Assembly (NCBI GenBank): GCA_013821455.1 | Contig: JACDGS010000002.1 | Location: 32,311-96,310, forward strand | DNA length: 64,000 nt | Origin: Chthoniobacterales bacterium | GTDB taxonomy: Bacteria; Verrucomicrobiota; Verrucomicrobiia; Chthoniobacterales; UBA10450 | Reading direction: 5' to 3' | Shown here: positions 1,201 to 36,983 of the stretch, one piece after another | Position numbering within the stretch: position 1 is the stretch's first letter | How the letters are laid out: every line of letters starts with the position of its first letter | Position numbers and translations under genes: made by a program | The notes under the pieces: generated by a model | The model's input: only the letters and a program-made list of their open reading frames with translations | Told to the model about the DNA's origin: nothing | The model's database searches: none

Positions 1201-4200
1201 CTAAAATTTCTTCGTTAGCTGGAGGTAGCAGAAGCGGCCTTTGACATTGGCAAGGGATGGGTCGTAGCCATTGCCGAAGCCGCCGGCGAGGAATGGCGGG
1301 TCGGAATCGAACACGTTCTGCATCCCGAGCGTGATCGTCGTGCCATTCAACCAGGCGCGCCATCCACGCGCACCGTAGTCGGCAGTGGAGATGGCCATGG
1401 CGTTTTTCTCCTTGCCATCGGGCATCTTCACGTTCTTTCCGCCATCCTTGGCGTAACCAGCGACTTCCTGCTGAGCCAGCGGCGCCCGTAAGTTAAACGT
1501 ATAAGACGCGATCAGGTCGAGCGTGGTCCACTCCCGTACTTTGCGGATGCCCGGACCCCCTGCCGATGTCGCGAGGAACACATTGTTATCTTGATACTGG
1601 CCGGTGTAGTGCACGGTCGCTCCAAGATCGAAGCCGGCGAGCCAGGTGTGAGCCGGGCCGTCCCAGAACGCGCTGGCAAAAGCTCGAGTGTGCGGCAGCG
1701 AGCCGGCTAAGGGCGGTAGAAGCGCAGACGAACCCGAGAGCCCAAATCGGTGACTGTCGGGAGTTACCTGAAGCTCGAAGCGAGACAGGTAGGTCCCGTT
1801 GAGAGTAATGGTAAACCTGCCGAAATCGCCACGACCAAAGATCGCTGAATCCAGGATATAGATCGCTTCGTAATCGAGACCTTCCACCACGACGCGGGCG
1901 AGGTTCAAGTTAGGGTTGATGAGGTCCGTGATTGCGCCAGTTGTTGGATCACGAATGACATACCCCGGAAATAGATCCTCATGATCGACGATGAAATTCC
2001 CATCGGATAACGCGGCAAGTGATCGAAGGTCAATATGCCAGAAATCAGCGCTCAGGCTAAGACCTCTAATCCATTTCGGACTGTAAACCGCTCCGTAAGA
2101 CCATTCGTAGGCAACCTCCGGCTTTAGGAGGGGGTTTCCGGTCAAGAGTACCCGTACTGCGGTGCCCTCGGGTGTCTGCCCCGTTGGATCGGGAATGCCG
2201 AGGGGACCGCCGGCGGGGATGAAAATCTCCGTTCCGGCCGGCGTAAGATCGGGTAATGTCGGCGGATGAAACGCTTCGCTGTAAGAAGCACGGAAAGTGA
2301 GAGTGCCAATCCTCACGGGCTCAAGCGGCTCCCAGCGAACGGAAAATTTCGGCTTCTGCGCGTGATACTGGGAGTGTTCTTCAGGCAAAACGATAGGAGC
2401 AGTAGTCGCAGATGTATTCTGGCGATACCATTCTTCGCGCTCGGCGATGTCGAACTCGAGACTGTATGCTCCTGGCAACTTCCAGGGCTGGTCACTGGAA
2501 TACGCACCTCTTGGTAGATTCCCCAGACGTCCCGGTTTACCCTCGCGGTTTGGGAATTAAAGGTACCGATCGCGTCAAAACTGGTGTTTTTCGGGTCAGG
2601 ATCGTTTCTCCAGCTCTCTCTGCGATACTCGAGCCCGGCGGCGAAGGAGACCGGCCCGGCGGGAAGATTGAACAGATCGCCATCGAGATGGAAATAGGAC
2701 GATGCTAACTCAAACTGGCCGGTGGCATGCAGAGTAACGTAGACCCGGCTGATTGCCGCCGCGGTGTTTCTACCTTGGTATCCAAGGAACGGGTTAAACG
2801 CGGTGGCCGGGTCCGTATCCAAGAGCGCTTCGCGTAAGCCCTTCGCGCTGACCACGCCACCAGTGAGGGTTTCCTCCTCGTTCCGGGAATAGCGGAAACC
2901 CGATTCCCAATTCCAATTCTTGAAGTAATCGCCAAACTCTCCCATCCGACCGCGAAGTCCGGCATCGAGTAGCCAGTCGTGGAACGTGGTCTTGGATGTA
3001 GCGCCGCCTGTGTCTTTAATGCCGCGGAAATGAACTCCGGTGGTGACAGGCGTGCCATCAGGCAAAATCGCATCCGCGAGCGTGAAGGGATTAAACGGAT
3101 TTGCGATTGGCACACTTATGCCGTCAAGATTAAAGGCAGCACCGTTCGCTTTCTTGAATGGATCCGGGAAAAAGCCACTAGCCGCCCCAGCTCCATCAAA
3201 AAAGGAGCGGGTATATTTGAAGTCGGCAAACACCGTGAAGGACTTGTCATAAATATCGCGCGTAAAAGAGCCATAGAAACTTTGGCGATCCGCCGCTGGA
3301 ATCGATGCGGTCGCAGGCGCGTAGTTATAAAGGGTGAAGTTCCCATCGGGATAAGGAACCTTGTTGGTATAGTAAAGTGATTGGGAGACATTCGGGGCGG
3401 AATGGGGCGGCGGAGAGTTCCCACTAAAAAACAGCTTCGGGATCAATCGAAAGCCTAATGGAGCCTCGGGGTTGCTGAAGAACGGGCCGATATAGCCGGG
3501 GAAATCCGTGCTGCGCAAATCAAACCCGCCAAACGCAGCTTGGTTGGCGTTACTGGTAATGTTGCGGTCGCGACCGTATATGGCGGCTCGATCGTAGGCG
3601 TCGGCAATGATCACGATATCGGTCTTGTCATCTCTCATCCCGGTAATCATCCACGTCTCGAGCTCGCGTGCGTCATTCGAGGAACCCAGATTTGTGTTGC
3701 CAATACTGCTTCCAATCTCCGAACCACGAAATTTGTGTTTCAAAAAGATATTGAAGACACCGGCCACCGCATCACTGCCGTAAATGGCCGAGGCGCCATC
3801 CTTCAGGATGTCGATGTGATCAATCATCGGGAAGGGAATGAGATTGATGTCCACCCCCGCGACGCCGGGCGAGGCACCTGCGGCAACCCCGCCGCCGCTC
3901 CCAATTATCGCAGCGCGCTTTCCATCGATGAGAACCAGAGTCTCTTTGGGCAGCAAACCGCGCAGATTGGGGATTACGCTGCCATTCCCGCCATCAATGC
4001 CATTGGCGTTCTGGTTAATGGTCGAGCCCAGCGACTGCGGCAGCTTGGTCAGCAGGTCGGTGGCGTTGCGCACGCCTAATTTCTCGATGTCTTCTGGACG
4101 ATAGGTATCCACAGGGATTGACCCTACTTCCTCGCCGGTTGGAATATTTGAGCCGGTAACGACAATCCGTTCGGCTTCGTTCTCCGTGGGAATGCCAGGT

Positions 4201-4435: not shown

Positions 4436-7252
4436 CTATTTTGGAGCAAGCGAATTTACGATTTTCTCGAAGCGCGGATCGCCGCGCAACGGGTCCCACA
4501 GCGGACTCAAGCGCAAGTTGCCATAAGTGTGCAAGCCCGGCGTTTTGACGAGGGCTTCAAGTTGCCCAAGCGCCAATTCACGTTCGCCTGTCCAGATACA
4601 GATGATGGCAAAGCAAGTCTTTACGTATGGCTCAGTGTCTGAGTCCTTGACGCTGGCTGCGAGTTCCATCGCGCGCCGGCCTTCGCTTAGTGCCTCTTCT
4701 TTTCTTCCCAGGCCTGCATCGATCAGCCCGAGCTCAGAAAGTAGGCCTACATCTTCAGCGTGACCGCTGATCTCGTGCTCTTGTTGTGCGCGTGCGCTCA
4801 TAAAGGCAGCGCGCGCAGAACTTTCGTCTCCTTTCAAACGAGCGACTACACCCACCCCAAATTCGCGGCCAAGGCGAGGAAAGCTCCACTCGAACGAAGG
4901 TCCCTGGGAAAGCAAGGGCGCAGCACGCTCGGCGGTGTCCCAGTCACGATCGTAGAGCGCAAGAGTGTAGCGCTGGGCCGCCACAAATGGATCTTTGTCT
5001 GATCCAGGTTCATTGGTCAGGATCTTTTCAATTGCAGCGCGCCAAGGCCCTGTGTCGGCTCGCCGGTATACTTCGACCGAAGCGCGAAAAAGCCGCCCCG
5101 GCCTGAGGTCTGGATTGTATGCAACGATACGATCCATAATTCTGGTGAACTGGTCATAGTCGTGCAACCAAACGTAGGTCGATCCGAGGGTAATCAGGTA
5201 AGGGAGATTTCGAGGATCGAGTTCAGATGCGCGCTCGAGATTCTGTGTGGCGTCAGTCCAGCGACTCTGTTTGTAGTCCATCAATCCCGCTAACTCATAA
5301 ACCTGCGGGTTATTGGGTAAGGTTTCTCGAGCAAGAGCAAGTTCCGCGCGGGCGCGGTGATAATCCGAATAACCCCAAAAAAGATGCCATGCCAGCGCCA
5401 GGTGGGCTTCCCCCGAATCCGGTCTCAACCGAAATGCAGAATCTATGGCCGACTTTGCCAGAGCCAATCGCGCGGGCGTTTTGTCAATCAACTCGTGCGC
5501 AAAGGCTAGCTGGCAATAAGCGGTGAAGAAATTTGGATCACGAGCAAGTGCCTTATTAAGCAGGTCCACAGCCTCGGAAAGATTCACGGAAGGCCCCAAG
5601 GAGATCTGCGCGTTGTAAATTATGGAGACGGCGCGGACGTAAAAATCATAGGCAACCAGGTCCTGAGTTGGTGTTTCTTCAACAGACGCCTTCTCACTAG
5701 CTGAGAGCTTGGCGTGAAGGTGCTGGGCAACTTTTTTCGCGATCTCGCTTTGGATGGCGAACAAATCATTCAAATCGCGGTCGTATTCCTCGGCCCAAAT
5801 GTGGGTGTCCGTGCGCGTGTCAATCAGCTGTGCATTCAGATGAAGATGCGTGCCGGCCCTCCGGACACTCCCCTCCAGAACATGCGATACCCGCAGATCA
5901 TTTCCAATCTGACGGAGATTTCGTTTGCCGCGATATTCCATCACGCTTGTCCGGCTGATGACTTTCAGGTCACCGATCTTGGCCAGCTTGGTCAAAATGT
6001 CGTCTTGTAAGCCATCGACAAAGGCCGCGTTCTCTTTCTGTTCGCCCATATTTTCAAACGGTAGAACGGCGATGCCAGTTGTTAGCTGACGTTGGATTAG
6101 TTCGCTCTGCCACACGTTCCATCCAACCGCTGCAATCAGCGCAATCATAGATGCCGCAAGCAGCGCGATGGTTGGATTGCGCCGCATCCATTTCCCGGCG
6201 CGGGTGAGCGGGCCCGTGCGCCGGGCCGCAATTGGTTCATGCTTTAGCCAGCGGTCCAAGTCCTCAGCCAGCGCGAGGGCAGACGAATATCGGCGCTTCG
6301 GATCTTTCTCGAGACACTTCAGGCAAATCGTGGAAAGATCGCGATCGACTTTCGGATTTAAGACACGCGGTTGCCGCGGCTCCGTATCGAGCACCAGCTT
6401 GATCGTCTCGTAGGTTGCTCCACCAGCAAAGGGCGGATGACCGGTCAGCAATTGGTAAAGCACTGCGCCAAGTCCATAGATATCTGTGACGCTGCTGACT
6501 GCCGCATTGTTCCCCATTGCCTGCTCTGGCGCCATGTAACTAGGTGTCCCCAAAACGTCCAGCGTGCGCGTCATCGTGCTCTCCGTTTCCACCAGCCGCG
6601 CCAGTCCGAAGTCAGTCAGGTGCGGTTCGCCTTTGGCATCGAGCAGAATGTTCCCCGGTTTGATGTCACGATGGAGAATTCCATGTTCATGCGCGTAATG
6701 AACCGTGCGCGCGACCGTCGTGATTAATTCTACCGCGCGCCGAATCGGCATCGGCTCCCGTCTGGCCACTTCATCAAGTTGGCCGCCTTCGATAAACTTC
6801 ATGCTGAAGTAGCACGAGCCGTCACGTTCGCCGACCTCGTGGATCGGAACGATACCGGGATGCTCCAAACGCGCCGCGGCTTCGGCTTCAAGCCGAAAAC
6901 GCTTCAGGTGCGCTTTGCTCGCCCACGGACCAAGGCTAATGACTTTTAATGCGACTGTGCGATTGAGGCTCTTTTGCCGCGCTCGAAATACCACGCCCTG
7001 ACCGCCGCGACCGACCTCTTCCAACAATTCGTAATCGCCCAACTCTCCCAGCAGCCCGACTGCGCGCTTTGAAATTTCCACATGCGACGCACAAGTCGCG
7101 TCATTCGCCTCCGCTGAACCTATGGCGGACGAGTCGTCAGCGGCTACAAAAGCGAGCGCGGTTTTGAGCACGCACCCGGTGCAAAGCCCTTCCGGCGCAT
7201 CGGAAAAGATTTTCGCGCCGCATTTGCGGCAGATTCGCATTATTCTAACCAT
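4436..7252 (-). CDS. Zinc-ribbon Ser/Thr protein kinase with TolB-like domain and TPRs (module 1)
   Basis: The protein is 938 residues. Domains in order: CxxC...CxxC zinc ribbon (Cys 8, 11, 24, 27); protein kinase from about 74 to 330 with GRGGQGVVF loop, VALKVI lysine, catalytic HRDIKPGN, DFG and a GTPSYMAPEQ activation segment; one transmembrane helix near 360-382; a TolB/FlgO-like domain starting GIAVLPFENMGEQKENAAF near 394; then TPR-like helical repeats to the end. All catalytic residues are present. The topology suggests a cytoplasmic kinase and an outside sensor or scaffold part. A start at the second Met (position 7240) is equally possible. It follows the sigma factor by 57 bp, so co-expression is likely, and it may phosphorylate that sigma factor (inference). 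Confidence 0.9.
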   Translation of the reverse strand: MVRIMRICRKCGAKIFSDAPEGLCTGCVLKTALAFVAADDSSAIGSAEANDATCASHVEISKRAVGLLGELGDYELLEEVGRGGQGVVFRARQKSLNRTVALKVISLGPWASKAHLKRFRLEAEAAARLEHPGIVPIHEVGERDGSCYFSMKFIEGGQLDEVARREPMPIRRAVELITTVARTVHYAHEHGILHRDIKPGNILLDAKGEPHLTDFGLARLVETESTMTRTLDVLGTPSYMAPEQAMGNNAAVSSVTDIYGLGAVLYQLLTGHPPFAGGATYETIKLVLDTEPRQPRVLNPKVDRDLSTICLKCLEKDPKRRYSSALALAEDLDRWLKHEPIAARRTGPLTRAGKWMRRNPTIALLAASMIALIAAVGWNVWQSELIQRQLTTGIAVLPFENMGEQKENAAFVDGLQDDILTKLAKIGDLKVISRTSVMEYRGKRNLRQIGNDLRVSHVLEGSVRRAGTHLHLNAQLIDTRTDTHIWAEEYDRDLNDLFAIQSEIAKKVAQHLHAKLSASEKASVEETPTQDLVAYDFYVRAVSIIYNAQISLGPSVNLSEAVDLLNKALARDPNFFTAYCQLAFAHELIDKTPARLALAKSAIDSAFRLRPDSGEAHLALAWHLFWGYSDYHRARAELALARETLPNNPQVYELAGLMDYKQSRWTDATQNLERASELDPRNLPYLITLGSTYVWLHDYDQFTRIMDRIVAYNPDLRPGRLFRASVEVYRRADTGPWRAAIEKILTNEPGSDKDPFVAAQRYTLALYDRDWDTAERAAPLLSQGPSFEWSFPRLGREFGVGVVARLKGDESSARAAFMSARAQQEHEISGHAEDVGLLSELGLIDAGLGRKEEALSEGRRAMELAASVKDSDTEPYVKTCFAIICIWTGERELALGQLEALVKTPGLHTYGNLRLSPLWDPLRGDPRFEKIVNSLAPK

Positions 7253-26005: not shown

Positions 26006-26065
26006 GCAGTCGTCCGGCCCGAGATGGTTCTTGCCCTTTCTTATTGGGCTGACTAGAAGCACGGC

Positions 26066-26824
26066 ATGGTCCAGGCACCCAAAGCCACCACTGTGGACGA
26101 CGGGCAGTTTGCCGCCACACGCTGGACTATCGTGCGCGCGGCGGGTGATTCCCAAATCGCCTCCAACCATGCCGGCGCGGCACTCTCGGAATTATGTCAC
26201 ATCTATTGGCGCCCCCTCTATCTCTACCTCCGCCGCGAAGGATTTGGCTTGGAGGATGCGCAAGACCTGACCCAGGGATTTTTTGCGGAACTGATCCGCG
26301 ACCGCAGTTACCGCAGAGCCGATCGTCAAAAAGGACGGTTCCGTTCTTTTCTCCTTGGCGCGCTCAAACATTTCGTGGCCAATTCTCGAGAAAGCGCGCA
26401 ACGCCAAAAGCGCGGCGGCGGATTGATCCGCGAGCTTTTTGACGATCGCATCGTTTCCGAGCTGGAAGCGCAAGTGCAGAGCACGCAGCAGTGGAGCGCG
26501 AGCACGCTTTTCGACCGCGAGTGGGCGGCCGCGCTCCTGCACCAAACGCTCGATCGCCTCGCGCAGGAATGCGCTCTCGCCGGCAAGTCGCCGCTTTTCG
26601 AGGAGCTTCGGGCGCATCTCGCCGGGACGAACGACGAAGGTGTGGCCTACGATGAAATTTCGCGCCGGCTCCAGCGCAGCGCCGTCACTCTGCGCAGCGA
26701 TATGGGACGGTTGCGCACGCGCTATCGCGCGCTCCTGCGCGAGGAAGTGCGCGGCACCGTGACGGAGCTCGCGGAAGTGGATGACGAATTGCGTTACCTC
26801 TGTCAGGTTATCGCGCAAAGCTGA
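26066..26824 (+). CDS. ECF-type RNA polymerase sigma factor (module 3)
   Basis: The protein is 252 residues and the most divergent of the three paralogues. It keeps FAATRWTIVRAAGDS, LCHIYWRPLYLYLRREGFGLEDAQDLTQGFFAELI and the RFRSFLLGALKHFVA block. Region 4 is EISRRLQRSAVTLRSDMGRLRTRYR. In place of the FVRR codons that carry the 9-mer in paralogues 1 and 2 it has LYLRRE, without the motif. The gene is intact although its partner kinase is broken. The kinase start is 3 bp after this stop. The start at 26066 gives MVQAPKATTVDDGQFAATRW. Confidence 0.88.
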   Translation: MVQAPKATTVDDGQFAATRWTIVRAAGDSQIASNHAGAALSELCHIYWRPLYLYLRREGFGLEDAQDLTQGFFAELIRDRSYRRADRQKGRFRSFLLGALKHFVANSRESAQRQKRGGGLIRELFDDRIVSELEAQVQSTQQWSASTLFDREWAAALLHQTLDRLAQECALAGKSPLFEELRAHLAGTNDEGVAYDEISRRLQRSAVTLRSDMGRLRTRYRALLREEVRGTVTELAEVDDELRYLCQVIAQS

Positions 26825-26827
26825 CTC

Positions 26828-29588
26828 ATGTCTTTCAGTCCTCCCAGCGGCGTTGTTTGTGCCAAGTGCAGTGCGCGCGTTGAGACCACGGCTTCAGCCG
26901 ATTTTGGATGCCTCGCCTGCTGGCTGCAGGCTGGCCTGGAAGAGTCGTCGCAGGTCGCCGCCGAAGAGCACGAGCAAGTCCCGAAGTCGTTAGGCAGTTA
27001 TTTCATCCTGAAGCAACCAGATGGTTCGCCCTGGGCGCTGGGGCGTGGCGCGATGGGTGTGACTTACCGAGCTGAAGACGTGTCGCTGCGCCGGCCGGTC
27101 GCGTTGAAGTTGATCAACGCCGACTTCGCGCAGCACGGCGCCGGGGCGCGCGAACGCTTCGTCCGCGAGGCGCGCGCGGCGGCTTCTTTGCGCCATCCAA
27201 ATGTCGCCACGGTCTATCAATTCGGCATCGACGAAGAAACCGGCCAGTGCTTTTGCGCGATGGAGTTGATCGAGGGAGAAACTCTCGACGAACGCGTCCC
27301 ATCGCGCGGCAAATCGCGGCCGCGCTTTTGGTCGCGGAGAAGCAGGGCCTCGTCCATCGCGACTTGAAGCCCGGAATATCATGATCCTGACGAGCGACGA
27401 GCCGGATCAAATCACAGTAAAGATCATCGACTTCGGGCTGGCTAAAGCGTTCACCGAAACCGCCGACGGACGCGCCCTGACCGAAGGCGGTTTTCTCGGC
27501 ACCCCGGCCTTTGCCAGCCCGGAGCAACTCCGGCGCGCGCCGGTCGATGCGCGCTCAGACATATACTCGTTAGGCGCGACGCTTTGGTATTTGCTCACAG
27601 CTCAGCTTCCGTTTGGCGATCGCGCGCCGCAGCGGCCGCCGCTCGAGCAGCTCAAGAAGGCACACGTGCCCGCGGACCTTACTTCGCTGCTTGTAGCGAT
27701 GGTTGCGACCGCACCCGCCGCGCGCCCGGGGGCGAAAGAACTTACGGCCAGGCTGGCAACTTTGCCGCGGCGGCGGCGGCGAAAAATGCTCCTAACGGGA
27801 ACTGGATCCCTTCTCGCGTTAGTCGCGGCCGGTCTTTATTTCCAGTCGTCCCGCCCGCAAGCGCCGCCGAAGGTGGCGGGCGCGACGGAAAAAAGCATCG
27901 CGGTTCTTCCCTTTGAAAACCTGAGTCAGGATAAGGCGAACGCGAGCTTCGCCGATGGCGTGCAGGATGAGTTGCTGACGGACCTCGCACACATCGCGGA
28001 TCTAAAAGTAGTTAGTCGCACCAGCGTAATGCAGTACCGTGGGGGCCAGCCGCGGAAGCTGCGCGAAATCGGTGAGCAGCTTGGCGTGGCCTACATTGTC
28101 GAGGGCGCGGTGCAGAGAGCCGGGAACAAAGTCCGCGTCACCGCGCAGCTCATCGATGCGCGCTCCGACCTGCACCAGTGGGCGCAGACTTACGACCGTC
28201 CCGTGGACGACGTCTTTGCCATCCAAAGCGAAATCGCCCAAACCATCGCCGAGCAGCTCGACGCCAAAATCGCGCCGCACGAAAAAGCCGCGATCGAGTC
28301 GGCGCCGACGCACGACCTCGCGGCTTACGATCTTTACACTCGCGCGAACGCGCTGCTCACGAGCACGTCCTTTAATCCGCGCAGTAAAGCCAACCTGCTC
28401 CAGGCCGCGCAACTTCTGGCCGAAGCGGTCGCGCTCGATCCGAGTTTTCTCCTCGCCTGGTGCCAGCTCGCCACTGCGCACGATTCCCTCTACTTCCTTG
28501 GCTTGGATCATATTCCTCTCCGGTTGTCGTTAGGCGAAGCCGCGGTCGATGCGGCTTTGAAGTTGCGGCCCGAAGCCGGCGAGGCCCACCTCGCGCGGGC
28601 GCGTCATCTTTATCAATGCTATCTCGCCTACGAGCCGGCGCTGGCCGAACTGGAAATCGCCCGCCGCACTTTGCCTAACGACCCCGGCGTTTTCACTCTC
28701 ACTGGCTACATCTATCGGCGGCAGGGGAAATGGGACGAATCCGCGCGCGAATTTGAAAACGCCCTCTCGCTCGACCCGCGCAATGTCTACCTCCTGCAAC
28801 AAACCTCCATCTCTTATGCGCTCCTCCGTCGTTATGCCGACGCGGCTAACATTCTCGACCACGCTCTTCTCATCGCGCCGGAGAACGTCGATCTGCGCGT
28901 CGCACGGGCCGAAGTCGATTTGAATTGGCACGCCGATACGCGCCCGCTCCACGCCATCGTTGCGGCCATTCTCGCGCGGGCCCCCGCGGCCGCGCCCGAT
29001 CTCGCGGGAGCTTCGCTTTTCCTCGGCTTTTGCGAACGCGACCGCGCGGCGACGCAAAGTGCGCTGACCGCGCTCGGCGACGGCAGCTTCGGGCCGGACG
29101 CGATGCAATTCCGGCGCATTTTTTGGGAAGGCCTGGCCGCAAAAGTAAACGGCGATACTGCGGGAGCAGTGCAGGCCTTCGGCCAAGCGCGCGATGAACA
29201 GGCCCGCAAAGTGGCGGCCTCACCCGACTTCGCGCCCGCGCTTTGCATCCTCGGCTTGATCGACGCGGGCCTGGGTCATAAGGAGGAAGCGATTCGCGAA
29301 GGTCGCCGCGCGATCGAGATGCTGCCGGTCAGCCGCGATCCGATTAATGGCGCGCACATGATCGAGTTTCTGGCCATCTCCTACGCATGGTTAGGCGAAC
29401 CGGAGTTAGCCTGCGAGCACCTCGAAATGGCGGTGAAAATTCCCGGAACTCTGAGCTACGGACAACTACGACTCTGGTTCGAGCTCAGGAAGGGCGATAC
29501 CTTGGATTTCCAGGTCGGTTACGGTGAGAACAAGACCTACTTCTACGATTCCACCGGCCTCGTCGCGATCATTGAGAAGATCAAATGA
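26828..29588 (+). pseudogene. Broken and chimeric TPR-kinase (module 3)
   Basis: Three frames are needed to read it. 26828-27295 gives the zinc ribbon (CAKC...CLAC) and kinase N-lobe (GRGAMGVTYRAED, VALKLI, MELIEGETLDERV). 27300-27372 gives IARQIAAALLVAEKQGLVHRDLKP in another frame, with about 10-15 residues missing before it. 27381-29588 gives IIDFGLAKAF, GTPAFASPEQ, a TM helix, the TolB-like domain SIAVLPFENLSQDKANASF and TPRs (735 residues). A base is missing just after HRDLKP (near 27372). The last 34 residues (LRKGDTLDFQVGYGENKTYF...EKIK) match not kinases but the end of the secreted protein in the next gene, so the 3' end is a fusion. The stop overlaps the next start. A truncated sensor protein could still be made from 27381. 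Confidence 0.88.
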
Positions 29589-30253
29589 AAGCCCTTCATC
29601 GCGCGGCCAGTCTGGCCTTGTTGATCCTACTGCCAGCCGTACCCGGCCTTGCTGCCATTCCTGTTTCCTGCTGGGACGCCACCTCGGAGTTTAACGACAG
29701 CGCAAATCCGGACGCGGCCAATCCTTCCGGAGTCTGGAGCTACGGCTGGAAAAAGACGCTGACCGACAAATTTTTTCTCGCGCAAACACCCTACAGCAAC
29801 CCGCCTTCCATATTTGGCTGGTGTAATGCGAGCGGATTTCCACACATCATTCACAGCTCTCGAACCGCGCCGTTTACTGGGAGCGGAGTTAATGCCGCCA
29901 CTCTCCCGCCGCGTGCTCTGCTCCTCCATCCCGGGTTGAATGGAGAATATGCGATCTTGCGCTTTACCGCGCCGGCCGACGGAACCTACAAGATAGCTGG
30001 TCAGTTTTATGCCCTCGATGATCATGGCAAGGGCACGACCACCGATGTGTGGGTTCTGCCTAACGAGACTAAGACCGGAGCTTATTCCGCGGAGGTGGAT
30101 TACTACGGCGGTGCCGGGTCTGTCAGCTTCACGGGCAAAGTCTTTCAGCTCAAGAAGGGAAATACTCTCGATTTCGAAGTCGGCTGCGGCCCGAATAAGA
30201 ATTACGAGTACGACTCCACCGGTCTGGCCGCGCTGATCGAGAAGGTGAAGTAG
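29585..30253 (+). CDS. Secreted jelly-roll-like protein A
   Basis: The protein is 222 residues. The signal peptide reads ASLALLILLPAVPGLAAIPVS. The mature part has the pattern WDATSEFNDSANPD...GVWSYGW, then LLLHPGLNGEYAILRFTAPADGTYKIAGQFYALD, TTTDVWVLPNE, GNTLDFEVGCGPNKNYEYDSTGLAALIEKV. Such domains occur widely in exported Verrucomicrobia and Planctomycetes proteins, often with PEP-CTERM-like tails. This one has no sorting tail. Function is unknown, possibly carbohydrate binding (inference from the beta-sandwich look). Its paralogue is at 36249. The start overlaps the kinase stop (ATGA). It is the output gene directly behind module 3. Confidence 0.8.
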   Translation: MKALHRAASLALLILLPAVPGLAAIPVSCWDATSEFNDSANPDAANPSGVWSYGWKKTLTDKFFLAQTPYSNPPSIFGWCNASGFPHIIHSSRTAPFTGSGVNAATLPPRALLLHPGLNGEYAILRFTAPADGTYKIAGQFYALDDHGKGTTTDVWVLPNETKTGAYSAEVDYYGGAGSVSFTGKVFQLKKGNTLDFEVGCGPNKNYEYDSTGLAALIEKVK

Positions 30254-30513: not shown

Positions 30514-33500
30514 ATGAACATAAAGCAAACTACACATAAGAGGGAACGGCTAATCTCTGTCTGCAGAAAAGCCGCTCTCAAGGTCACGTTATTAAGTCTG
30601 TTACTGCTTGGAACTGAGCGTGCGTCTGGGACGCTTCTTTACGCTACCTCAAGTACAGACCAAAAAATTTACCAGGTTGATACTCTTACGAACGTCGTGA
30701 ATTCCTATTTTATGGCGCTACAATCTCCCGACAGCCTGATGTTCGATGCGATGGGAAATGTGGTTTATACAGCGATCAACGCCGGAACGGTCCACTCCTA
30801 CAATCCCAACACACTGGTCGACTCAGTGATATCGAGTGGCTTGAGCAGCCCGGCCGACGTCGCGTTGGAACCGGGCGGAAATACGATGCTCGTGAGCGAG
30901 TTCAATGGCGGAAAAATTGATCGAATTGACTTAACGACTCACGTCCGCACAACACTTTATTCAGCACCGGGGACTAATCCCGAAGGAACAGCCTTCGATG
31001 GTGCGGGCAACTTGTTCGCAAATCTGGGCGTCCGGGGATCGCCCGGAAGCAGTGGAAAGTATGTGGCTAAAATCAACCCGCTTACGGGCGCCATTTTGGG
31101 CCAAACGATAAACCTCCCCGGTCTCGACGGGCTGACCTACGACTCGTATTCTCATATGCTCTTCGCCGCTTCGCTATATAATGTGACAGGCACAACCGGC
31201 ACCGTTTACCAGATCGATCCGAATAATCTTAACAACGTGGTAGATCTGGGGCAAACGCATGGGTGGAACATTCCACGCGCGGATGGAATCACCTCGGATG
31301 GCTCGGGACACATCTTCGTCGCATCTGCGCCGGGCCTGCCCGGCGATGGTCACGTCTATGATATCAACCTGATGAATGGCACGCTCACGAAAGGGGCGTT
31401 CGTTTCTCCGTATCTGGACGATCTCGCTCCAGCCTCTGGCTTGGGCGCGCCGAAAGGCGAGCCGTTCCCCGCGCAGCAATGTTGCGGCGCGAAACCGCAT
31501 TTCGAAGATCCGGCCTATGCGAATGTATTCACTGGCCAGGTGGCGGGCCGCGACATGTTACTCGGCCATTGGAACGGACGCAGTGCTAGTCGTGGAGGAT
31601 CTTAAGAACCAGGCGACTGCTCCGCTGAATACCAATTATGCGCCTCCAGCTTATCACGGCCCCGCCTCGTCTTGGAGCCGAGATAATCTGGGCGATATTT
31701 TTGGGGTTACGCTCGACGACTCCGGAAACATCTACGTCACCGCCACCACGGCGTACACTACCGACGTTTATCCTACTACAACTAACAGTGCGATGAACAT
31801 TTACAAGGTTGCTAGCGGGTCCGGGGCCATCACACTTTTCAAGACTTTGCCCCAATCTCCCGCCACCGCCCCTGGAGCGGGGTTGGGGAATATCACCTAC
31901 GACTGCGCTCATAAGAACTTCTATGTGAGCAATATTGACGATGGCCTCATTTATCGGCTGGATCTCAGCAGCAACACTTTGAGTACGTGGGATCACGGCG
32001 TCAATCTCTCGACTGCGCAGCCACCCTCGGCGGCCATTCCCGATGTCCCCACGACACCCTTTACGCCTCTCGGTCGTCGAGTTTGGGGGTTGCAAGCGCA
32101 TAACGGGCGACTCTACTACGCCGTGTGGTGGGAGGATGCCGGACGACCCAACCCGGCGCATGCAAACGAAGTCTGGTCTATCGCCTTGAGTAGCAGTGGC
32201 AGCTTCGTTCCCGGGACCGATCAATTGGAAATCAGTATGCCGGTAGACGTCTTTCTGGATGGCACCGTCTCGAACTATTCCAACCCTGTTTCGGACATTA
32301 GCTTCGGCCCGACGGGCACGATGTTACTTGCGGAAAGAACCATGGCTGATGATACCACCCCCAATGCGCATGAGGCGCGTGCCTTGGAATACATGCTGAG
32401 CGGTAGTAGTTGGGTTCCTACAACCAATATGTTCTCCATCGGAGTCCCCGGCGTTTCTTTGGGATTTCCGCCCCTTAACGTAGGGGCGAGTTCTGCGGGT
32501 GGAACAGACTACGACTTCGGGGCGGGAGGGCGTGCCTGGGTCACCGGCGACGCATTGCAACTTTCTCCCAACAGCATTTACGGCCTTCAGGGACTGCCGG
32601 CGAGCGGAGGTAGTATCGTGAACAGCATTTTGATCGATCTAAATGGCGACATCGTCAATCAGAACAAAACGCAAATCGGCGACGTCGAAATTCCCTGCCC
32701 CAGCTGTCAAATAAACGGCACCGTCGTCACACCCGCTAACGCCGGTGCTCCCTATACCTACCAATTCACGGTCACCAACAACTCGAACCTGGCAGCCAGT
32801 AACATCATAATACTTCCGGTTAGTGGTGTGACCTCGATCACTCCGCAAACACTCCTCCTTTCGCCGCCGCTCCAGCCGGGACAAACCAGCCAAACATTCA
32901 CTCTGACGCTGAACGGTGCCCAGCCCGGAGTGCAAGCGTGCTTCAATATCGCTTTGGTCAGTGCGGATGGCACGACATGTTGTTCGCAACAGTTGTGCGT
33001 GCCGATACCAAGCTGTTTCGAAGTGCTGTCGCAGGTGGTCACATGCCTGCCGAACGGCCAGGTGCAACTGACGGTCACGCTCAAAAACCTGGAGGCTTAC
33101 ACGCTCTACTACTCAGCGGTTGTCCCTTCGGCTCCCAGCAAAACGGCGACACCGTCCTTTTTCACCCTGAATCCTACGGTGCCGCCTTTTGGCACCACCA
33201 CGATAACGACCGTCATTTCCCCGGTCGTGACGGCGAAACTGTCTTTTATACTCTCACGATCCACTCGGCCAATCTGGAGATCTGTTGTTCCAGGAACCTA
33301 TCTTTCACCGCGATTTGCAAGCGCATAATAAGAGATGGGAGCTCGCGTCTGACCCACGGAGGGGCCGGTTCCTTCGACATCGAAATGCCGCTCACAGGCA
33401 CTTCCGGCGTGGAAGACCGCGATGGCTCGGGCAGCTACCTGGCTGTCTTCACCTTCGACGATCCCGTCACTTCCGGTGACGCCGCGATCGTCAGCGGCAC

Positions 33501-33819
33501 GGCCACGGCGGGCGTCCCGACCTTCAGTGGCAACGAAATGCGCGTCCCCCTCGCTGAGGTGGCTGATCAACAGAACGTGACCATCGAGGTTTCAAACGTG
33601 GATGGCGATGGCGGGTCCGACGATGTGGTCTTCGGCTTCCTTAAAGGGGACGTAAACGGCGATCGCACGGTCAAGAATACCGACGTCACCCAGGTCAAGG
33701 CTGCGAATGGTCAACTGGTTACAGGCTCCAACTTCCGCGACGATATCAATCTGAGCGGTAAGGTCGACAAGGCGGACAGTCAGGCGGTCACTGCCAACAA
33801 GGGTCACCGCCTCCCGTAA
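30514..33819 (+). pseudogene. Secreted beta-propeller protein with dockerin-like end, two frameshifts
   Basis: Three frames join into about 1100 residues. First part (30514-31575): an N-terminal signal and NHL/SMP-like propeller blades (TLLYATSSTDQKIYQVD, GNTMLVSEFNGGKIDRID, DGLTYDSYSHMLFAAS). Second part (31576-33228): more blades, then CPSCQINGTVVTP and Cys-pair modules (DGTTCCSQQLCVP). Third part (33229-33819): GETVFYTLTIHSANLEICCSRN, a domain with GGAGSFDIEMPLTGTSGVEDR, and an ending GDVNGDRTVKNTDVTQVK...DINLSGKVDKADSQAV, which is a dockerin type I-like pair of calcium loops. Frames break near 31575 and 33228. A cell-surface or matrix role is inferred. No 9-mer occurs in it. Confidence 0.75.
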
Positions 33820-36248: not shown

Positions 36249-36983
36249 ATGGCAATTCGCAGGAGTCATCTTACTTCCGGCGTAACAGCATTTTTAAGGG
36301 ATAAGGATAAGCTTCATCGCCCCCGAGCGCTCGTCCTGGTCCGCTTCGTTTCAGCGCTGCTCGCGCTAACTCCGGTGGCTTGCCTTGCCATCACCGCTAG
36401 CTCCTGGGATGCGGTCGCGGAGTTTAACGACAGCGCGAATCCAGACGCGAAGAATCCTTCCGGCGTCTGGAGCTACGGCTGGAAAAAGATTTTGGCCGGC
36501 AGGTTCTTTCTCGCGCTCACCCACTGTAACGACCTTCCTCCTACGTCCGGCTGGTCCAGCGCGAGCGGGAACCCGGAGATTGGTCATAACTCTCACTCCT
36601 TCCCAGTCACGTTGGCGCCGGATGCACTCACTTTGCCGCCGCACGCCCTATTCATGCGCCCCGGCCTGAATGGAGAGTATGCCGTTCTGCGTTTTACCGC
36701 GCCGGCCGATGGCACGTATAAAGCGAGTGGACAATTCTATGCTCTAGGTGATAACGGAATCGGCGCTACGACCGACGTCTGGATTCTACCTAACGAGAAT
36801 AAGACCGCAGCCTTCTCCGCCCTGCTCGCCTACTCCAGCGGTGCGAGAGCGGCCAGCTTTACCAGCAAAGTCTATCCGCTCAGGAAAGGGAATACGCTCG
36901 ATTTCGAAGTTGGCTACGGCGCGAACAAGAACTACGACAACGACATCACCGGTCTAATCGCCTTGATCGAGGTAGTTAGGTAG
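36249..36983 (+). CDS. Secreted jelly-roll-like protein B, paralogue of A
   Basis: The protein is 244 residues. From residue 50 it matches protein A (29585) along its length: WDAVAEFNDSANPDAKNPSG, LFMRPGLNGEYAVLRFTAPADGTYKASGQFYAL, TTTDVWILPNEN, GNTLDFEVGYGANKNYD. The signal peptide is LVRFVSALLALTPVACLAIT. The first 25 residues look unlike a normal start, so the true initiation codon may be a rare one further in. At the codons matching the exact 9-mer of protein A (30058) it has ACCTAACGA (one mismatch). It may share function with A. Confidence 0.78.
   Translation: MAIRRSHLTSGVTAFLRDKDKLHRPRALVLVRFVSALLALTPVACLAITASSWDAVAEFNDSANPDAKNPSGVWSYGWKKILAGRFFLALTHCNDLPPTSGWSSASGNPEIGHNSHSFPVTLAPDALTLPPHALFMRPGLNGEYAVLRFTAPADGTYKASGQFYALGDNGIGATTDVWILPNENKTAAFSALLAYSSGARAASFTSKVYPLRKGNTLDFEVGYGANKNYDNDITGLIALIEVVR

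Follow-up and report, generated by a model that had tools for sequence, protein, structure and literature searches.

An in-frame join between a frame-broken Ser/Thr kinase gene and the tail of a secreted-protein gene, probably a deletion scar, in a Chthoniobacterales genome

Kinase 3, a kinase gene in the window (the whole 64,000-nt stretch of DNA analysed here), ends in a 36-residue tail of other origin, and two further losses of sequence interrupt its kinase domain. One explanation covering the whole of this, namely that the tail is a deletion scar without function in a decaying kinase gene, is considered probable. The most likely form of it is a recent pseudogene scar that by chance left both the frame and the stop/start overlap to the neighbouring gene A in place. 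Rather than a protein of a new kind, the locus appears to hold an ordinary, though well documented, deletion scar in a gene that was damaged recently. The features concerned are listed below.

26057..26824, + strand: gene of a sigma-70/ECF-like sigma factor preceding kinase 3, frame intact, weak family match
26828..27367, + strand: N-terminal ORF of kinase 3, comprising the N-lobe and about 22 residues read out of frame before a TGA
27299..27375, + strand: two lesions with 37 nt and 1 nt missing, the HRD loop lying between them in a third frame
27381..29588, + strand: 735-aa ORF with C-lobe remnant, transmembrane segment, TolB/FlgO-like and TPR region, and fused tail
29474..29477, + strand: putative deletion breakpoint interval, between the end of kinase similarity and the start of similarity to the tail of a secreted copy
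29477..29588, + strand: 36-codon tail, presumably left over from an upstream secreted-gene copy that was lost; its TGA overlaps the next ATG
29585..30253, + strand: protein A, secreted, beta-sandwich-like, starting inside the ATGA overlap
36249..36983, + strand: protein B, paralogue of A, 65% identical to it

The tail, its junction and the arrangement in a sister species

The ORF at 27381-29588 matches the kinase family up to LSYGQLRL and then passes into the tail, so that its C-terminal sequence reads ...TLSYGQLRLWFELRKGDTLDFQVGYGENKTYFYDSTGLVAIIEKIK; translation of window positions 29475-29588 gives (W)FELRKGDTLDFQVGYGENKTYFYDSTGLVAIIEKIK followed by the stop. The first-pass annotation had described this switch and the resemblance of the tail to the C-termini of proteins A and B, and both descriptions hold. 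The tail is identical to residues 187-222 of protein A at 25 of 36 positions (69%; pairwise BLASTP E 2e-17), with an alignment score of 137 against a maximum of 53 among 5000 shuffles of the tail, and it retains the LDFxVG..YDSTGL..IEK pattern. A, B and the tail itself are the only three places found in a whole-genome search, in which the tail gave an E value of 4.5e-10.

The junction is sharp. Similarity to the orthologous kinase of a sister species, Spartobacteria bacterium palsa_1392 (PNAA01000017.1, hereafter G004), stops at 29473-29475, and similarity to the secreted copies starts at 29477, so that the breakpoint at 29474-29477 joins two parts of separate origin, in frame. At its other end the TGA of the tail overlaps the ATG of protein A, forming ATGA at 29585-29588.

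G004 carries the orthologous sigma factor and kinase, and window positions 26104-29473 align with this pair at the DNA level. The G004 kinase is a single open frame of 930 codons from stop to stop with the normal end LSTMWDNLRGNPRFEKIVASLAPGSNR, and the 735-aa ORF of the window is 73% identical to it over the C-terminal 537 aa. A TAATG overlap links the stop of the G004 kinase with the start of a first secreted copy, behind which two more copies follow in tandem, each starting inside an ATGA overlap. Protein A shares 64-67% protein identity with the first two of these copies. Window positions 29477-30253 form one aligned block with the tail of copy 2, the ATGA and copy 3 of G004 (71% over 780 nt, 371 bits); the tail aligns also with the junction of copies 1 and 2. 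Nucleotide identities of the tail to copies 1, 2 and 3 (71, 73 and 70%) do not decide which of the G004-type copies would have been its source. The third copy of G004 (L019 reverse complement 5953-6617, G004:C13) shows two 1-nt losses, both in homopolymers; either this tandem array is also decaying or it carries sequence errors.

Tandem duplication of the secreted gene followed by deletion had been proposed as the history of the fused gene, and this proposal is well supported by G004, where the undeleted kinase stands before its tandem copies. The unfused kinase with an extra secreted gene, for which the first-pass annotation had suggested looking in strains, was thus found in this one sister species. 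A homologue in a second genome (G003:C147, 67%) was considered as another example of the precursor and rejected: it has the normal end, but no secreted copies lie behind it and its N-terminus is different.

According to the proposed history, the ancestor would have possessed the sigma factor, a full kinase and at least two tandem secreted genes, each tied to the preceding gene by a stop/start overlap. A deletion, presumably a single event, would then have removed ~27 codons from the 3' end of the kinase, together with the whole upstream secreted copy except its final 36 codons, leaving the in-frame join. Relative to G004, the loss would amount to ~665 nt (0.67 kb) and one copy if copy 1 gave the tail, and to ~1.46 kb and two copies if copy 2 did. 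Two other deletions, of 37 nt and 1 nt, would have broken the kinase domain.

In deletion-derived gene fusions (scars or chimeric pseudogenes), a gene that has lost its 3' end is joined in frame to a following gene that has lost its 5' part, and the undeleted arrangement may survive in a relative. Kinase 3 shares these features, with a sharp breakpoint, complete unfused genes in G004 and the fused state in 0 of 28 other homologues. It differs in that the acceptor is a tandem copy of the intact downstream gene, the ATGA overlap is kept, and the kinase is frame-broken elsewhere too. A literature search for fusion by deletion in bacteria gave no direct precedent. The locus illustrates cleanly how secreted genes arranged in tandem behind a sensor kinase turn over, and how the kinase can lose its 3' end along with them; a sister species preserves the state before the deletion, and the stop/start overlap has survived across the scar. 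It is also a warning that such exchanged ends should not be read as new domain architectures.

In a study of ATGA overlaps, translation was strictly coupled for 13 of the 14 gene pairs examined (PMC6728339). The junction of the tail with A and the copy junctions of G004 share this type of stop/start overlap, and by analogy the tail and A may be coupled. Since the in-frame join preserves the overlap, A can still receive ribosomes from the upstream ORF, and the decaying 3' ORF of the kinase, which still reads into the ATGA, would possibly deliver them.

Damage to the kinase gene

Pairs of ECF sigma factors and Ser/Thr protein kinases that regulate them have been reviewed (PMC8103513). Three pairs with the sigma gene directly upstream of the kinase gene, as in the reviewed systems, are found in the window. 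Kinase 3 differs from those systems by its TolB/FlgO-like and TPR C-terminal part, and regulation of the sigma factor by the kinase is here putative. The sigma factor at 26057..26824 matches NCBIfam Sig-70_gvs1 and sigma70-ECF and Pfam Sigma70, all below cut-off.

Kinase 3 is not one open frame in the assembled sequence. Nucleotide alignment with the G004 orthologue places a loss of 37 nt directly after ETLDERV (27299/27300) and a loss of 1 nt at about 27374, within HRDLKPG/NIMI at the position of the stroke, so that the kinase domain extends over three frames, with the N-lobe and the C-lobe in different frames and the HRD loop in the third. Correspondingly, the Pfam Pkinase profile is matched at positions 7-91 in the ORF at 26828-27367 and at positions 136-258 in the ORF at 27381-29588, where Pfam TPR matches stand beside the C-lobe, and the HRD region is contained in neither. 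The earlier reading of the gene as a working membrane kinase with a fragment of its output protein is therefore not upheld. The ORF carrying the tail begins at 27381, the earliest common start codon, and encodes no kinase, because the N-lobe and the HRD catalytic loop lie outside it; N-lobe, HRD loop and DFG in one continuous frame, as expected of a functional Hanks-type kinase, are not present in kinase 3. Protein A is the putative output of the kinase, judging by operon neighbourhood.

Compared with the intact orthologue, the two losses and the missing 3' end are disabling breaks of the kind expected in a pseudogene. Amino-acid change is not accelerated in the window lineage: a relative-rate count with two outgroups gave 34-44 changes there against 61 in G004. 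When the tail is compared with the other copies, pN/pS is 0.21-0.33, similar to the 0.18-0.37 found between intact copies; the copy-3 rows, which are out of register, were left out of this comparison. As there are no excess amino-acid changes and the tail evolves like the intact copies, the damage would be recent, or some of the lesions would be sequence errors. If the loss is recent no acceleration is expected, and the count neither supports nor excludes a pseudogene. A sequence error could account for the 1-nt lesion; a loss of 37 nt is not typical of such errors.

The secreted module and a possible role of the fused frame

No match to protein A was found in Pfam, NCBIfam or PDB sequences. 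Its structural model is of low confidence, worst in the N-terminal half, and the C-terminal half is predicted as seven strands, of which the tail would correspond to the last two and the end of a third. Modelling of the fused ORF gave high confidence for the TPR part and low confidence for the tail, where residues 702-726 score below 50. Relatives of A are embedded in proteins of Planctomycetota and Verrucomicrobiota that are GH36-like and LamG-like by our reading of their sequences (L031, L032 and others), with which A shares NPxGVWSYGW ... VxRFTAP..GTY..G ... LDFxVG...YDSTGL. A and B differ from these glycosidase-like and LamG-like proteins in being short and consisting of a single module. 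In Planctomycetota the module is apparently inserted in alpha-galactosidase-like (GH36-like) proteins (L031:5317-8145, L032:5603-8341), and this insertion suggests a carbohydrate-binding role. The tail comprises no more than the final strands of a beta sandwich, which is an incomplete fold, and is probably a leftover without a role.

The fused frame could alternatively encode a functional membrane TPR protein without a kinase, translated when ribosomes reinitiate at 27381 behind the N-lobe ORF. At the periplasmic end of this protein, strands of the secreted protein would bind the latter or its partners. The 735-aa ORF is long, open and not fast-evolving, the join is in frame, the LDFxVG..YDSTGL..IEK pattern is retained in the tail, and a related protein of the second genome, G003, is likewise without a recognisable kinase domain. 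With an unaccelerated C-terminal ORF of this length, a residual membrane TPR protein could still be expressed. Against this, the ORF starts in the middle of the kinase domain, past the catalytic loop, which is not a domain border; the tail occurs in no homologue and is an incomplete fold modelled with low confidence; and the absence of acceleration is expected from a recent event as well. A functional fusion is thus regarded as unlikely. Its more specific form, in which the tail of a periplasm-facing protein completes or caps the A or B beta sandwich, is very improbable; were it true, the secreted protein would have gained a binding partner from a lost signalling kinase.

Assembly of the region and the endings of kinase homologues

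A slightly less likely alternative than a functional fusion is that the join is an artefact of assembly or binning, the real genome possessing the kinase, a full secreted copy and A, and the contig skipping the middle. The genome is a fragmented draft of 117 contigs, tandem repeats are a known assembly hazard, and other accessory genes in the window also appear frame-broken. Judged from G004, however, the joined sequences have only a few bases in common where they meet, not enough to give an assembler an overlap; the repeats are too diverged to collapse at ~70% identity, and the tail is unique in the genome. Given these few shared bases and the ~30% divergence of the tail from every other copy in either genome, there was little overlap by which an assembler could be misled, which is an argument from the sequence and not proof. 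An origin of the tail as an assembly copy of A or B was ruled out by its nucleotide identity to them of only 65-71%.

Two accessory genes of the window show breaks of this kind. The secreted NHL/SMP-30-like gene directly 3' of A (30514-33819) lies in three frames, with breaks near 31564 and at 33239-33373 that reflect either local decay or sequence errors, and an accessory gene on the minus strand (1206-4187) changes frame near 2460-2546 on the same strand.

The ending of kinase 3 was compared with those of 28 homologues, which are the fetched loci with a readable C-terminus obtained by searching five genomes from the genus. All 28 possess the canonical WDPLRxDPRF-type ending, 26 as strict matches and the remaining two as WTPLRSDPRF and WSPLREEPGF; kinase 3 alone is without it, in agreement with the first-pass annotation. 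Orthologues with the same ending as kinase 3, which that annotation had named as the sign of an ancestral domain, were not among them, the A-like tail occurring in 0 of the 28. Given the canonical ending of these homologues, the tail is not ancestral, and an ancestral C-terminal domain of the kinase subfamily lost elsewhere, for which nothing was found beyond the in-frame join, is scarcely credible when the closest orthologue (70-73% identical) also has the canonical end. The TolB/TPR C-terminal part gives many matches per genome of the genus (40 in the genome of the window and 47 in G004), some with a kinase domain and one (L065) apparently with a nucleotide-cyclase-like N-terminus.
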